Assembly: GCF_018129025.1 (NCBI RefSeq)
Contig: NZ_JAAEDI010000023.1
Span: 1 to 64,000 of the forward strand
Direction: 5' to 3'
DNA length: 64,000 nucleotides
Source: Neoroseomonas terrae
GTDB taxonomy: Bacteria > Pseudomonadota > Alphaproteobacteria > Acetobacterales > Acetobacteraceae
The position numbers were made by a program, and so were the translations under genes. Every line of letters begins with the position of its first letter. Position 1 is the first letter of the stretch. Of the stretch, positions 7,110-22,845 are shown one piece after another. The notes under the pieces were generated by a model. It was not told where the DNA came from and made no database searches. It saw nothing but the letters and a program-made list of their open reading frames with translations.

Positions 7110-7287
7110 GGAGGGGCGCTGCCCCTCCGAACCACCCCGCCAGGTGGCTGGGCCACCTGGACCGCAATCGATTGGTGCGTCGGAGCGGGCTTCGGAACCA
7201 TTCTGCCAGCCGCGCCGGGGGCCAGATGGAGGTTTGCAAAGGCCTTTCGGCCTTTGCTGGGGTGGCTTGGAGGGGTGAAACCCCTCC
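7110..7287 (+). repeat. Structured intergenic repeat, copy A
   Basis: One of three copies of an about 180-bp intergenic element (others at 13690-13865 and 21850-22035). In order: hairpin H1 7110-7128 (GGAGGGGC / GCCCCTCC), hairpin H2 with a perfect 9-bp stem CCAGGTGGC-TGG-GCCACCTGG, the conserved box GGACCGCAATC, a variable middle, hairpin H3 GCAAAGGCC-TTTC-GGCCTTTGC, and hairpin H4 7269-7287. A CCACCCC near H1 can pair with GGGGTGG before H4, enclosing H2 and H3. Stems vary between copies but stay paired. It lies between argC and the gamma-CA gene, in the leader of the latter. Confidence 0.85.
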
Positions 7288-13595: not shown

Positions 13596-13689
13596 CGAGG
13601 ATGGCTCTCGCGGACGTCAGAGGGGCTTTGCCGCTCCGGCACCTCCCCGGCACGGCGACCCATGAACGTTGCCTTGCACCGTTCGTGGG

Positions 13690-13865
13690 AGGCCGCATCG
13701 GCCGAAGGGCCTTTGCAAACCTAAACCTGGCGCCGTGCAGGCTGCGCGCCGAGAGTCGCCTTCGTATGTTCGAACGGCTGCGGCGCCTGTCACCAACAGA
13801 TTGCGGTCCAGAGGCTCCAAGCCCCTGGCGGGTGGAGGCTCGAAGGAGGGCAGAGCCCTCCTTCG
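13690..13865 (-). repeat. Structured intergenic repeat, copy B (inverted)
   Basis: Second copy of the element, reading on the minus strand. H1 at 13865-13842 (GGAGGGC / GCCCTCC), H2 CCAGGGGCT-TGG-AGCCTCTGG (one G.U pair), box GGACCGCAATC, a variable middle, then GGCGCCAGGT and H3 GCAAAGGCC-CTTC-GGCCGATGC, whose upper stem is kept and lower stem partly broken. The last hairpin and the closing helix are degraded. It separates two plus-strand genes. Confidence 0.8.
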
Positions 13866-19600: not shown

Positions 19601-21307
19601 ATGCATGATTTCGTCATCCGCGGTGGCACGGTGGTCGACGGCACGGGCGCCGCGCCGTTCGAAGCGGATATCGCCATCGATGCCGGTCGCATCACAGCCG
19701 TGGGCCGCGTGACGGCACCTGGGCGTGACGAGATCGCCGCCAAGGGCCTGCTCGTCACGCCGGGCTTCGTGGACATCCACACCCATTACGACGCGCAGGC
19801 GAGCTGGTCGGACCGGCTGATCTCCTCCTCCATCAACGGCGTCACCACCGCGCTGATCGGCAATTGCGGTGTCGGCTTCGCGCCGTGCCGGCCCGAGCGG
19901 CGCGAGATGCTGGTGAAGCTGATGGAGGGCGTGGAGGACCTGCCCGAAGTCGTGCTGACCGAGGGCCTGCCCTGGTCGTGGGAATCCTTCCCCGACTACA
20001 TGAACTTCCTCGGCGGCCGACGCTACGACACGGACATCGCCGCCATGGTGACGCATGCGCCCCTGCGCGTGCATGTGATGGGCGAACGCGCCGAGGCGCA
20101 TGCCGAGGCCACCCCCGAGGAATGTGCCGAGATGGCGCGGCTGGCGGCCGAGGGGCTCGCGGCGGGCGCGGTCGGCATCTCGACCTCCCGCGCGCTCGCC
20201 CATCGCACGCTGGATGGGCGGCACATCCCGACGCTGGGCGCGCCGGAAGCTGAGCTGGAAGCCCTGGCCGGCGCACTGCGCGACCATGGCGCGGGTTGGC
20301 TCCAGGTGATCTCCGACTTCGACGATCCGGCGGAGGAGGAATTCGCGCGGCTGCGCCGCGTCGCTGCCGTATCGGGGCGTCCCCTCACCTTTTCCCTCCT
20401 CCAACGCGAGTCCAAGCCGGGCTTCTGGCGCTGGCTGCTCGATCGCGTCGAGGATGCGAACGCCGATGGCGTGCGGATGTTCGGCCAGGTGATGGGCCGG
20501 CCGGTGGGGCTGATGTTCGGCTTCGAGCTGTCGCAGCATCCGTTCCTGACACGCCCGTCCTATCGAGAGGTCGCGCATCTGCCGCTGCCGGAACGCGTCG
20601 CCGCGCTCCGCGACCCGGCCCGCCGCGCCCGCATCCTGGCCGAGCCAACCGACGATGCCGGCCTGAAGGTGCGGCTGAACAACTGGGACAAGATCTTCCC
20701 GCTGGGCGACCCGCCGGACTACGAGCCGCCACCCGAGCGTTCCGTCGCCGCCATGGCCGCCGCGCGCGGCATGCCACCCGAAGCCTTGTGCTACGATCTG
20801 ATGCTGGAACGCGACGGCCAGGCCATCCTGAATCGCCCGCTGCTCAATTACGCGGATGGCGACCTCGCCGCGATCCGCGAGATGATGACGCATCCCCACA
20901 CGCTGATGGGCCTCGGTGATGGTGGGGCGCATGTCGGCTACATCTGCGATGCATCCAGCATGACGCACATGCTGTCCTACTGGGTGCGCGATCGCCGGCG
21001 TGGGCCGCGCCTGTCGATCGAACAGGCAGTGAAGCGCATCAGCCGAGACAATGCGGCGGCGATGGGTCTGACCGATCGTGGCGTCATCGTGCCAGGCCGC
21101 AAGGCGGACATCAACGTGATCGACTTCGATCGCCTGCAGCTGCACGCGCCGGTCATGCACTACGACCTGCCTGCCGGCGGCAAGCGACTGATTCAGAAGG
21201 CGGATGGCTACGTCGCGACCATGCTCTCGGGCGCCGTGACCTATGCCGATGGGCTGGCGACGGGCGCCCTGCCCGGCCGCCTGGTGCGCGGAGCCCGTGG
21301 CGCCTGA
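19601..21307 (+). CDS. N-acyl-D-amino-acid deacylase family amidohydrolase
   Basis: 568 residues of the metal-dependent amidohydrolase superfamily, D-aminoacylase group. N-terminal beta-sandwich ([14 protein letters not shown]), first metal motif [14 protein letters not shown], the [17 protein letters not shown] segment typical for D-aminoacylases, C-terminal metal site LGDGGAHVG, and the returning beta-sandwich with [15 protein letters not shown]. It removes acyl groups from N-acyl-D-amino acids or related amides. Its TGA overlaps the next ATG (TGATG). The substrate is inferred from family only. Confidence 0.9.
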
Positions 21308-21849
21308 TGCCGACCGAGAAGGAGAAGATGCTCGCCGGCGCGCTCTACGACGCGAGCGCGCCTGAAATCCAGGCGGATATGGAAGCCGCGCATGCCTGGA
21401 TCGAGCGCTACAATGCCAGCCTGGCCGCGGACGAACGCCGCGCGCTGCTGCTGGAACGCTTCGCCGCCGTGGGCGACGGCGCCATCATCCGCCCGCCCTT
21501 CCATTGCGACTACGGCTTCAACATCAGCCTCGGCGCCGGCGTCTTCCTGAACTTCAACTGCGTGATCCTGGACGTCGTGGCCGTCACGATCGGCGACCGC
21601 ACGCAGATCGGGCCGGGCGTGCAGATCCTCGCCGCCGACCACCCGCGCGACCCGGCGCAGCGCGCGGCGGGGCTGGAATTCGGTCGGCCGGTGACCATCG
21701 GCAGCAATGTCTGGATCGGCGCGGGGGCGATCATCCTGCCCGGCGTGACGATCGGCGACGATGCGCTGATCGGGGCGGGCAGCGTCGTGACGCGCGATGT
21801 GCCGGCGGGGGCGACGGCGTTCGGGAATCCGGCGCGGGTGAAGAATTGA
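21307..21849 (+). CDS. Sugar O-acetyltransferase (maltose acetyltransferase-like)
   Basis: 180 residues of the NodL/LacA/Maa acetyltransferase family, acetyl-CoA dependent. N-terminal Mac domain ([20 protein letters not shown]), hexapeptide repeats ([35 protein letters not shown]), the catalytic His in AADHPRDP and the C-terminal [14 protein letters not shown]. The ATG shares a base with the upstream stop. The acceptor is unknown; these proteins are often broad or uncharacterised. Its stop codon abuts repeat copy C. Confidence 0.88.
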
Positions 21850-22035
21850 AGGGGCTCCGCCCCTCCAAACCACCCCGCCAGGATGCTGGGCATCCTGGAC
21901 CGCAATCTGTTGGTGTTGGGCAGTCGGGCATGCTGCTGCTTCGTCAGGCGCTCGGCGCATGGCGCCAGGTATTGGTTTCCAAAGGCCCTTCGGCCTTTGG
22001 CGGGGTGAGCCCGAGAGGGGCAGAGCCCCTCTCGG
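21850..22035 (+). repeat. Structured intergenic repeat, copy C (best formed)
   Basis: H1 (GGGGC-TCC-GCCCC), the strand CACCCCGCCA, H2 CCAGGATGC-TGG-GCATCCTGG (perfect 9 bp), box GGACCGCAATC with TGTTGGTG, a variable middle, GGCGCCAGGT, H3 CCAAAGGCC-CTTC-GGCCTTTGG, then TGGCGGGGTG, which is the exact complement of CACCCCGCCA and closes the fold, and a last 11-bp hairpin H4 (22011-22035). It lies between two convergent genes, so it could also act as a bidirectional terminator. Confidence 0.85.
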
Positions 22036-22044
22036 TTCCGCCCT

Positions 22045-22845
22045 TCACGCCCAGACCTGTTCCGGCGTCAGCGGCTTCGCGATCAGCCCCTGCTCCGCAC
22101 AGAACCGCCCCGCCAACGCGATCGCCGGCGCCAGCGCCTCCCGCGTCGTCAGGCTCTCGCCGAAGATATCGAGCAGACCGGCAACGATCGCCGGGTCCCG
22201 CGCCAGCTCCGACCTCGCGACAACCAGGTGGTTCACCGGCTTGAAGCCATAGCGCGCGTGGAAGTCCCGCCCTGCCGCGGCCGGGTCGGGGAATACCGTC
22301 CGCATCCCCTCCGGCACCTCGAAGCCGAAGATCGCCGCATCCAGCTCACCGCCGCGCACCATCGTCGCGATGTCCCTGCCGGGGGCTGAGCGCGTCACGA
22401 AGGACGGGTCGCGGAAGGTCGGGACATGCGCGTCCTCGAAGGTCGTCCAGGCGATGGAATCCGGCTTCACGCCGTAGCTGTCCGCCAGCACACCGCGTAG
22501 CCACATCCCCGTCGTCTGGCTGTAGGCGCGCACGCCCACGCGCTTGCCCTTCAGATCGGCCGGACCGGTGATCGGGCTGTCCCTCGGGCAGACCAGCGCG
22601 CCTTCCTGATATCGTTCGGCCATCACCACCGGCAGCAGCGTGATGGGAATGCCGGCTTCCTTCGCCATCAGGAAGGTGGCGATCGCCATCTCGCAGACGT
22701 CGAAGCGCAATTCGCGCACCATCGGCGCGAAGGCCATGTTGATCGGCTTGATCGTCTTGCGATCAAGCCGCAGCGCGGCCGTCTCGGGCAGCGATGCCGT
22801 GTGCGGGTACTCGCCGATCGCGGCGGTCAGGACGCGCGGGCTCAT
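22045..22845 (-). CDS. 4,5-dihydroxyphthalate-decarboxylase-like / substrate-binding fold protein
   Basis: 266 residues, no signal peptide. It resembles the Pht5-type 4,5-dihydroxyphthalate decarboxylase family, which has a periplasmic-binding-protein fold: VRELRFDVCEMAIATFLMAK, then DLKGKRVGVRAYSQTTGMWL and GELDAAIFG. In the phthalate pathway such an enzyme yields protocatechuate. Third gene of an operon, its start overlapping the preceding stop (ATGA). Alternative: an ABC-type nitrate/taurine-like binding protein, but the missing signal peptide and transporter genes argue for the enzyme. Confidence 0.7.
   Translation of the reverse strand: MSPRVLTAAIGEYPHTASLPETAALRLDRKTIKPINMAFAPMVRELRFDVCEMAIATFLMAKEAGIPITLLPVVMAERYQEGALVCPRDSPITGPADLKGKRVGVRAYSQTTGMWLRGVLADSYGVKPDSIAWTTFEDAHVPTFRDPSFVTRSAPGRDIATMVRGGELDAAIFGFEVPEGMRTVFPDPAAAGRDFHARYGFKPVNHLVVARSELARDPAIVAGLLDIFGESLTTREALAPAIALAGRFCAEQGLIAKPLTPEQVWA

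Follow-up and report, generated by a model that had tools for sequence, protein, structure and literature searches.

The three hairpin-bearing copies (A, B and C) found in the window, the whole 64-kb stretch of Neoroseomonas terrae DNA analysed here, belong to a real, abundant, structured and apparently undescribed repeat family. Its copy number, palindromic plan, conserved pairing and free orientation, including a different orientation at orthologous sites, were computed directly, as were its position just downstream of genes, the empty orthologous sites and the duplicates with unrelated flanks. On balance we favour a non-autonomous palindromic repeat of the ERIC/YPAL/BIME type that probably acts as a two-way 3'-end structure; such a role for the flanking genes is our best guess. 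A preliminary description had offered either a RIME/BIME-like repeat or a structured RNA. The BIME-like option is the right kind, whereas an RNA made from one strand is not supported by the data given below.

Architecture of the element and its copies in the window

The element is an imperfect palindrome of ∼ 220 bases, composed of hairpin H1, a four-way junction (P1, H2, P3, P4) and hairpin H5. Each copy consists of two inverted units, in which a C-rich arm separates an outer hairpin of 8 bp from an inner one of 9 bp. H1 mirrors H5, H2 mirrors P4 (a single loop base distinguishes these two inner hairpins) and TTGG(C/T)GCC occurs on both sides of the centre. Because of this mirroring our covariance model R1 matches one place on both strands, and since the two units are inverted the full plan can form on either strand, in RNA as well as in extruded DNA. 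RNAalifold recovered only H2 and fragments from the first alignment; the structure was therefore drawn up by hand from the palindrome, and counts served to test it. R1 was built with this hand-written structure from 46 aligned copies of this genome (alignment A1; 222 positions, 50 pairs). Alignment A4 was fitted to R1, and alignment A2 leaves out 15 loci of the small-genome clade. The predicted RNA folds of copy A reach −112.3 kcal/mol on the plus strand (z −6.12) and −104.1 kcal/mol on the minus strand (z −5.97), and in both the H1 arms pair with the H5 arms and not locally. Its DNA fold (z −6.94) gives exactly H1, P1(H2, P3, P4), H5, and is the only one of the copy A folds with both separate outer hairpins. 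RNA fold z scores were −2.79 for copy B, within the ends first proposed for it, and −4.70 for copy C.

All three copies of the preliminary description were confirmed by sequence. The ends it gave for copy A are those of the model (7110–7287, plus strand) and those for copy C lie near the model ends (21848–22032, plus), but its end for copy B at 13690 misses H5; R1 places that copy at 13619–13862 on the minus strand. Copy A is 178 nt long with a shortened centre (R1 178.9 bits, E 1.1e-46). Its sequence and the unit scan described below place H1 at 7110–7128 and, from the minus strand in the scan, its mirror H5 at 7269–7287. Sequence and fold agree on the P1 5' arm CCACCCC (7132–7138) with its partner GGGGTGG (7259–7265), on H2 (7140–7160; CCAGGTGGC TGG GCCACCTGG) and on its mirror P4 (7236–7257); a word search puts the conserved core GGACCGCAATC at the junction (7159–7169). 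All of these are given on the plus strand. Copy C (21848–22034, plus; R1 164 bits) lies between convergent genes at 21307–21849 (plus) and 22045–22845 (minus). It comprises H1 (21848–21866) and H5 (22012–22034), both seen in the sequence and in the unit scan, and, from sequence, H2 (21878–21898; CCAGGATGC TGG GCATCCTGG) and P4 (21979–22000; CCAAAGGCC CTTC GGCCTTTGG), whose outer pair is C-G, compared with G-C in copy A. Copy B (13619–13865 by sequence, minus) is the most decayed, with an R1 score of 93 bits. Its H1 (13841–13865; CGAAGGAGGGC TCT GCCCTCCTTCG) and H2 (13808–13828; CCAGGGGCT TGG AGCCTCTGG, with one G-U) were read from the sequence, and an extra hairpin, ∼ 45 nt long, precedes its H5 end. 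An insert of this kind (CCCA..AACGTTCATGGG-like) stands between P4 and H5 both in copy B (13619–13700) and in a further copy, L064:2952–3185; it may represent a second small repeat lying within the element.

The two words reported as common to the copies were located in each, GGACCGCAATC at 7159–7169 (plus), 13799–13809 (minus) and 21897–21907 (plus), and GGTTTnCAAAGGCC at 7231–7244, 13708–13721 (minus) and 21974–21987. When two mismatches were allowed, GGACCGCAATC did not exceed chance in the window (30 found, 34.2 expected), nor did the GC hairpin pattern alone (27 compared with 31.3). GGTTTnCAAAGGCC with up to two mismatches was found five times in the window, a count that none of 100 shuffles reached. 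A scan for the two-hairpin unit recovered five of the six unit ends of A, B and C and had no further match in the 64 kb, compared with 0, 1, 0, 0 and 1 matches in five block-shuffled sequences. The H2 stems had been quoted correctly, but the statement that three or four pairs change was slightly too high: A and C differ in two pairs, A and B in three, and B and C in four.

Some copies carry outer extensions past H1 and H5, for which no sharp boundary was found. In some copies of this genome and N. alba (e.g. L032, L068, L204) the extension is degenerate (a GGCC hairpin, CTGATTR, CTTCCGC), which suggests a trace of an older, longer element with a better conserved inner core. Two copies of N. 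eburnea (L106/L155) share sequence past H1–H5 as well, over ∼ 44 nt to the left and ∼ 50 nt to the right, so that the unit that moves may extend further in this pair.

Abundance, range and dispersal

An exact search of the 5.77-Mb genome found GGACCGCAATC at 84 sites (45 + 39 on the two strands; the reversed control gave none). Judged by reading, 79 of these sites lie within recognisable copies, some of them 5' halves only (e.g. L002, L016, L022); those at L012, L026, L045, L051 and L067 lie outside and were dropped. The covariance model search proposed earlier did find further copies, in this genome and across the Acetobacteraceae. R1 matched at least 149 places in its own genome (all 150 candidates scored gave a row, one place being matched on both strands). 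Among 59 relatives, with 12–39 candidates scored per genome here and in the wider samples below, all 35 genus members (own genome included; N. alba, N. eburnea, N. marina, N. alkaliterrae, N. soli, N. oryzicola and N. lacus among them) gave matches and none of the 24 others did. Matches in the small-genome members of the genus were few (from at least 2 to at least 10); of the 15 loci from these genomes, nine are one copy between ruvA and ruvB and six hold a 3' half only. In wider samples, matches were found in at least 64 of 110 genomes and at least 60 of 102 genera of the Acetobacteraceae, and in at least 57 of 120 genomes of the order, every genome among the matches listed being of the same family. 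In the class sample at least 2 of 190 genomes matched, namely the window's own and one from another family (at least 1 of 189 others). The three loci in this last genome (G405; L288, L290, L292) show the two-unit plan in different letters, L288 reading hairpin, CCCCGCC, hairpin, spacer, hairpin, GGGG, hairpin.

A repeat private to the species was considered and rejected: the exact 13-mer core is nearly private (41 + 37 copies here; counts between 0 and 3 for each of 149 further genomes of the family), but the architecture is seen across the family. In nine other genera, ten copies read H1-CCCC-H2-GGACC or GGAAACC ... GGTTTCC-P4-GGGG-H5 and have a shorter centre. A second subfamily of ∼ 228 nt is present in this genome (L134:6511–6738, L135:2656–2884, L136, L137, L138); its H2 allele GGCCAT/ATGGCC was seen in 11 of the 93 copies counted. 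The remark that this is not a described family held up, as neither Rfam nor the open-access literature searched yielded it. Against Rfam release 15 at the gathering score no family matched, the window giving only a tRNA, and matches below threshold near copies were to miRNA and similar models, far below the cut-off.

Orthologous sites show gain. In the argC region, compared in 20 genus genomes, only N. alba has an R1 match. Site A is a gap of 55–194 nt in 17 of the 20 (286–443 nt in the window; anchors failed in L170, L171 and L180) and site B one of 44–55 nt in L169, L171, L175 and L176 (∼ 350 nt in the window), the remaining genus genomes having no anchor or no neighbouring gene at B. Both sites are thus empty in those relatives that could be anchored. 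In N. alba, site A holds a 20.7-bit remnant, site B half an element in opposite orientation and site C an element in the same orientation; elsewhere in the genus the gene neighbouring C was absent too, or anchors failed. Of other copies in this genome that map to N. alba stretches, L153 excepted, L063 and L037 have empty orthologous sites in N. alba, L059 is matched there in the same orientation and L152 in the opposite one, and L011 has no N. alba copy, the alignment of that stretch being ambiguous. Opposite orientation at an N. alba site may mean either in-place inversion or a separate insertion. L059 and its N. alba orthologue L194 differ in H2 (GGGGGT here, GGATGC in N. alba) and in the outer pair of P4 (G-C versus C-G); their ends are alike while centre and flanks have diverged. 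In the recent duplicates L073/L064 and L027/L028 the centres are 94% identical and the flanks become unrelated at a distance of ∼ 5 to 30 nt from H1 and H5, with no clear target-site duplication. ATGAC stands on both sides of copy B and singly in the empty sites; it holds overlapping stop and start codons. The many short, non-coding copies with inverted ends and filled versus empty orthologous sites are MITE-like features.

No mobiliser was found among the Y1 transposase and reverse transcriptase families. The Y1 transposase profile (PF01797) had no match in this genome, which is 98% complete, and matched in 5 of 14 control genomes; the Y2 profile had no match in any control genome. Retro-mobilization by a resident reverse transcriptase was rejected, as the only PF00078 match is a Drt8-like enzyme of defence type (PADLOC 3.2e-131), for which NCBIfam gave nothing above its cut-off. 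This gene (L297:90–2697, contig C12) adjoins one for a PDC-M02B-like protein.

One copy is orthologous across nine species of the small-genome clade. It lies in the gap that separates ruvA from ruvB, the Holliday-junction helicase genes, and is without the P4 hairpin (L120, L122, L123, L124, L126, L128, L129, L132, L154). In the nine genomes, none of the 36 pairs outside P3 ever varies, while P3 shows both-side changes in 6 of its 22 pairs (13 cells), with a covariation score of 0.088 compared with at most 0.020 for slid partners and 0 of 500 shuffles as high on all five measures. Both orientations relative to ruvAB occur: sense in G174, G179 and G154, antisense in G157 (read by eye), G177, G168, G151 and G156. 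Because the core is invariant, in-place inversion is the simplest reading. The contig of G171 begins inside the copy (L124:1–294) with a ruvB start on either side, either an assembly artefact at the palindrome or two orientations in one population. With orthologous copies in both orientations, constraint on such a repeat can be tested at a fixed site.

Position at gene ends and strand symmetry

Positions relative to genes, as predicted by an unvalidated gene finder, were taken for 115 distinct copies (nhmmer, at least 60 bits) in loci mostly chosen for holding copies. Sixty-one lie between convergent and 47 between tandem genes, three between divergent genes, four at locus edges and none inside a predicted gene. 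Tandem copies are on the same strand in 22 cases and on the opposite strand in 25, so orientation is free. Junctions with an element comprise 59 convergent, 46 tandem and three divergent ones (44, 291 and 88 for junctions without), which places the element at gene 3' ends with an odds ratio of 39 (p 1.6e-17). The median distance is 55 nt from a stop codon (169 ends) and 96 nt from a start codon (53 ends). The 71 copies of N. alba (23 convergent, 38 tandem, seven divergent, two inside predicted genes, one at an edge) show a much weaker bias in the same direction (odds ratio 4.4, p 0.0012). A U-tract terminator was rejected: a GC hairpin with a T-run behind it was present within 200 nt in 6 of the 164 gene ends that face an element. 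The figures were 2 of 87 and 5 of 73 where the element is missing and 1 of 160 after shuffling, in a comparison that had no positive control. We suggest that the copies were spread by some trans-acting machinery and would survive at gene 3' ends, where they may do little harm. Most likely, the structure then serves the genes on its two sides as an element of the transcript end; it could block 3' exonucleases or act as a stop that needs no U-tract. Against this role count the bias falling off in N. alba, the hairpins having no U-tract behind them and the RNA folds of copy A, in which H1 pairs with H5 over a long range.

The 3'-end bias could, however, reflect mere purging elsewhere. A purely selfish repeat with no function for the host, one that spreads but survives nowhere except at the 3' ends of genes, is possible although rather unlikely. 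Its perfect hairpins would be renewed by copying from few source alleles and by template switching, the replication errors that make palindromes perfect. Dispersal and empty orthologous sites are consistent with this, as are hairpin changes that are almost all Watson–Crick and H2 alleles that behave as subfamilies. Four main H2 alleles make up 77 of the 93 copies counted in this genome, and the centres of copies sharing an allele are 61.0% identical compared with 54.5% otherwise (0 of 300 permutations as high). Since the alleles track centre similarity, most H2 change within the genome is shared by descent. A selfish repeat is harder to reconcile with the ruvA–ruvB copy, kept in nine species with all outer helices invariant, and with the L059/L194 pair, whose ends stayed alike as the rest diverged.

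As H2 changes in this genome are largely subfamily labels, the compensatory changes that had been put forward as evidence for selection are weak evidence in three copies alone. In wider sets the covariation, counted with shuffle and slid-partner controls, is genuine. For the 46 copies, 96.5% of cells are paired and 74 cells changed on both sides (22.6 in shuffles), with a score of 0.129 compared with at most 0.053 for slid partners. Eleven pairs changed on both sides; 14 of 500 shuffles had as many, and further pair types were not above shuffles (465 of 500 as high). A set of 35 sequences (five from this genome, 20 from the genus, ten from nine other genera) gave both-side changes in 24 of 38 pairs (117 cells) and a score of 0.283 compared with at most 0.109 for slid partners; 0 of 500 shuffles scored as high, and 3 of 500 did for further pair types. 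Thus the expectation of covariation in larger alignments was borne out, here and in P3 of the ruvA–ruvB copy.

These three alignments would also suit an RNA made from the plus strand of the element, acting in trans or as a cis-regulator, as first envisaged. That a structured repeat keeps its pairing beyond the three copies stands; that it is a usual one-strand RNA is not supported. We consider such an RNA improbable, because the element is palindromic, its orientation is free and differs between orthologous sites, and Rfam has no match. Wobble pairs were counted in 132 distinct copies (97 here, 35 from N. alba, related copies included). The four hairpins pooled contain 4292 Watson–Crick cells, 36 G-U, 31 A-C and 49 others (binomial p 0.63). 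P3 favours G-U (148 versus 95 A-C, p 0.0008), as a one-strand RNA would, and so does H5 alone (21 versus 8), but H1 leans the opposite way (5 versus 11), leanings that are hidden in the pool. When the outer hairpin is read as 3'-terminal on each strand, G-U exceeds A-C by 32 to 13 (p 0.007) in a post hoc count of related copies that holds in this genome (23:5) and is not replicated in N. alba (9:8). Taken post hoc, this excess is what a 3'-end RNA role on both strands would give. A wobble pair is a mismatch on the opposite strand, and mostly Watson–Crick change would therefore suit palindromic DNA or RNA from two strands. Hence a strand-symmetric palindrome explains the covariation better than a one-strand RNA. 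More generally, when a repeat is palindromic, compensatory change alone is no evidence that it makes a one-strand RNA, and counts of G-U against A-C help to separate that reading from strand-symmetric ones.

The dominance of Watson–Crick change, the DNA fold with its full plan and the placement between converging genes, where a cruciform can serve as a supercoil sink, also point to an element acting as DNA, by extruding a four-way junction that absorbs supercoils or binds a protein. We give this little credence. The present data do not separate a cruciform from a two-strand RNA function, and no protein-binding motif was found, GANTC (in 8 of 58 elements) being the only one sought. Still less probable, in our estimate, is a two-way element built on the four-way junction that tolerates flipping, with Watson–Crick hairpins selected and their letters free, orientation changing in place and the ruvA–ruvB copy kept. 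Were it so, the extruded cruciform would offer junction-processing enzymes a substrate; these could invert the element and spread it, and the ruv copy could respond to its own gene products.

Comparison with known repeat systems

Our preferred reading, a non-autonomous palindromic repeat with a two-way role at 3' ends, finds its closest parallels in ERIC and YPAL. REPs, in the excerpts used here, are inverted pairs of hairpin units with a preference for convergent and tandem intergenic regions and a 3'-end position (PMC3733652). The present element shares these features with REP/BIME/REPIN sequences and their many copies, but its units are ∼ 55 nt with two hairpins, compared with 20–40 bp and one hairpin. 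A REP/REPIN that belongs to the GTAG or CGTC superfamily and depends on a RAYT transposase for its movement is nearly excluded: the genome has no Y1 match, GTAG and CGTC occur near 0 and 1 of 56 left ends and 3 and 9 of 56 right ends, close to the background of 3.1% and 12.5%, and the portion of PMC3733652 consulted calls CGTC repeats missing in Acetobacteraceae.

The CIR repeats of Caulobacter and Brucella are also intergenic and alphaproteobacterial. As far as the excerpt describes them, they have two stem-loop arms with a linker and an exposed GANTC methylation motif (PMC2229807). They were rejected as a match, since GANTC occurs anywhere in only the 8 of 58 elements mentioned above. The family adds an abundant palindromic interspersed repeat to the Acetobacteraceae, in a genome in which no RAYT was detected.

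In the available descriptions, ERIC is an imperfect intergenic palindrome of enterobacteria and Vibrionaceae, 127 bp long with a 7-bp terminal repeat and TA ends, predicted to form a single long stem-loop (PMC2267715), present in tens to hundreds of copies and linked to mRNA stability at 3' ends (PMC2229807, PMC10969869). Both are interspersed intergenic palindromes with many copies that fold on either strand; by description, the ∼ 220-bp length, the paired hairpins around a four-way junction, the high GC content and the occurrence in Acetobacteraceae set the present element apart. YPAL (RU-2) of Yersinia, as described in the excerpt used, is a palindrome of ∼ 170–220 bp with normal GC content, internal inverted repeats and no TA ends, whose empty versus filled sites show mobility with target duplications of 3–26 bp (PMC2229807). 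Our element resembles it, by description, in size, in a palindrome with internal inverted repeats, in lacking TA ends and in its empty and filled sites, and is unlike it in that no target duplication is established. On these descriptions, ERIC and YPAL are the nearest in kind.
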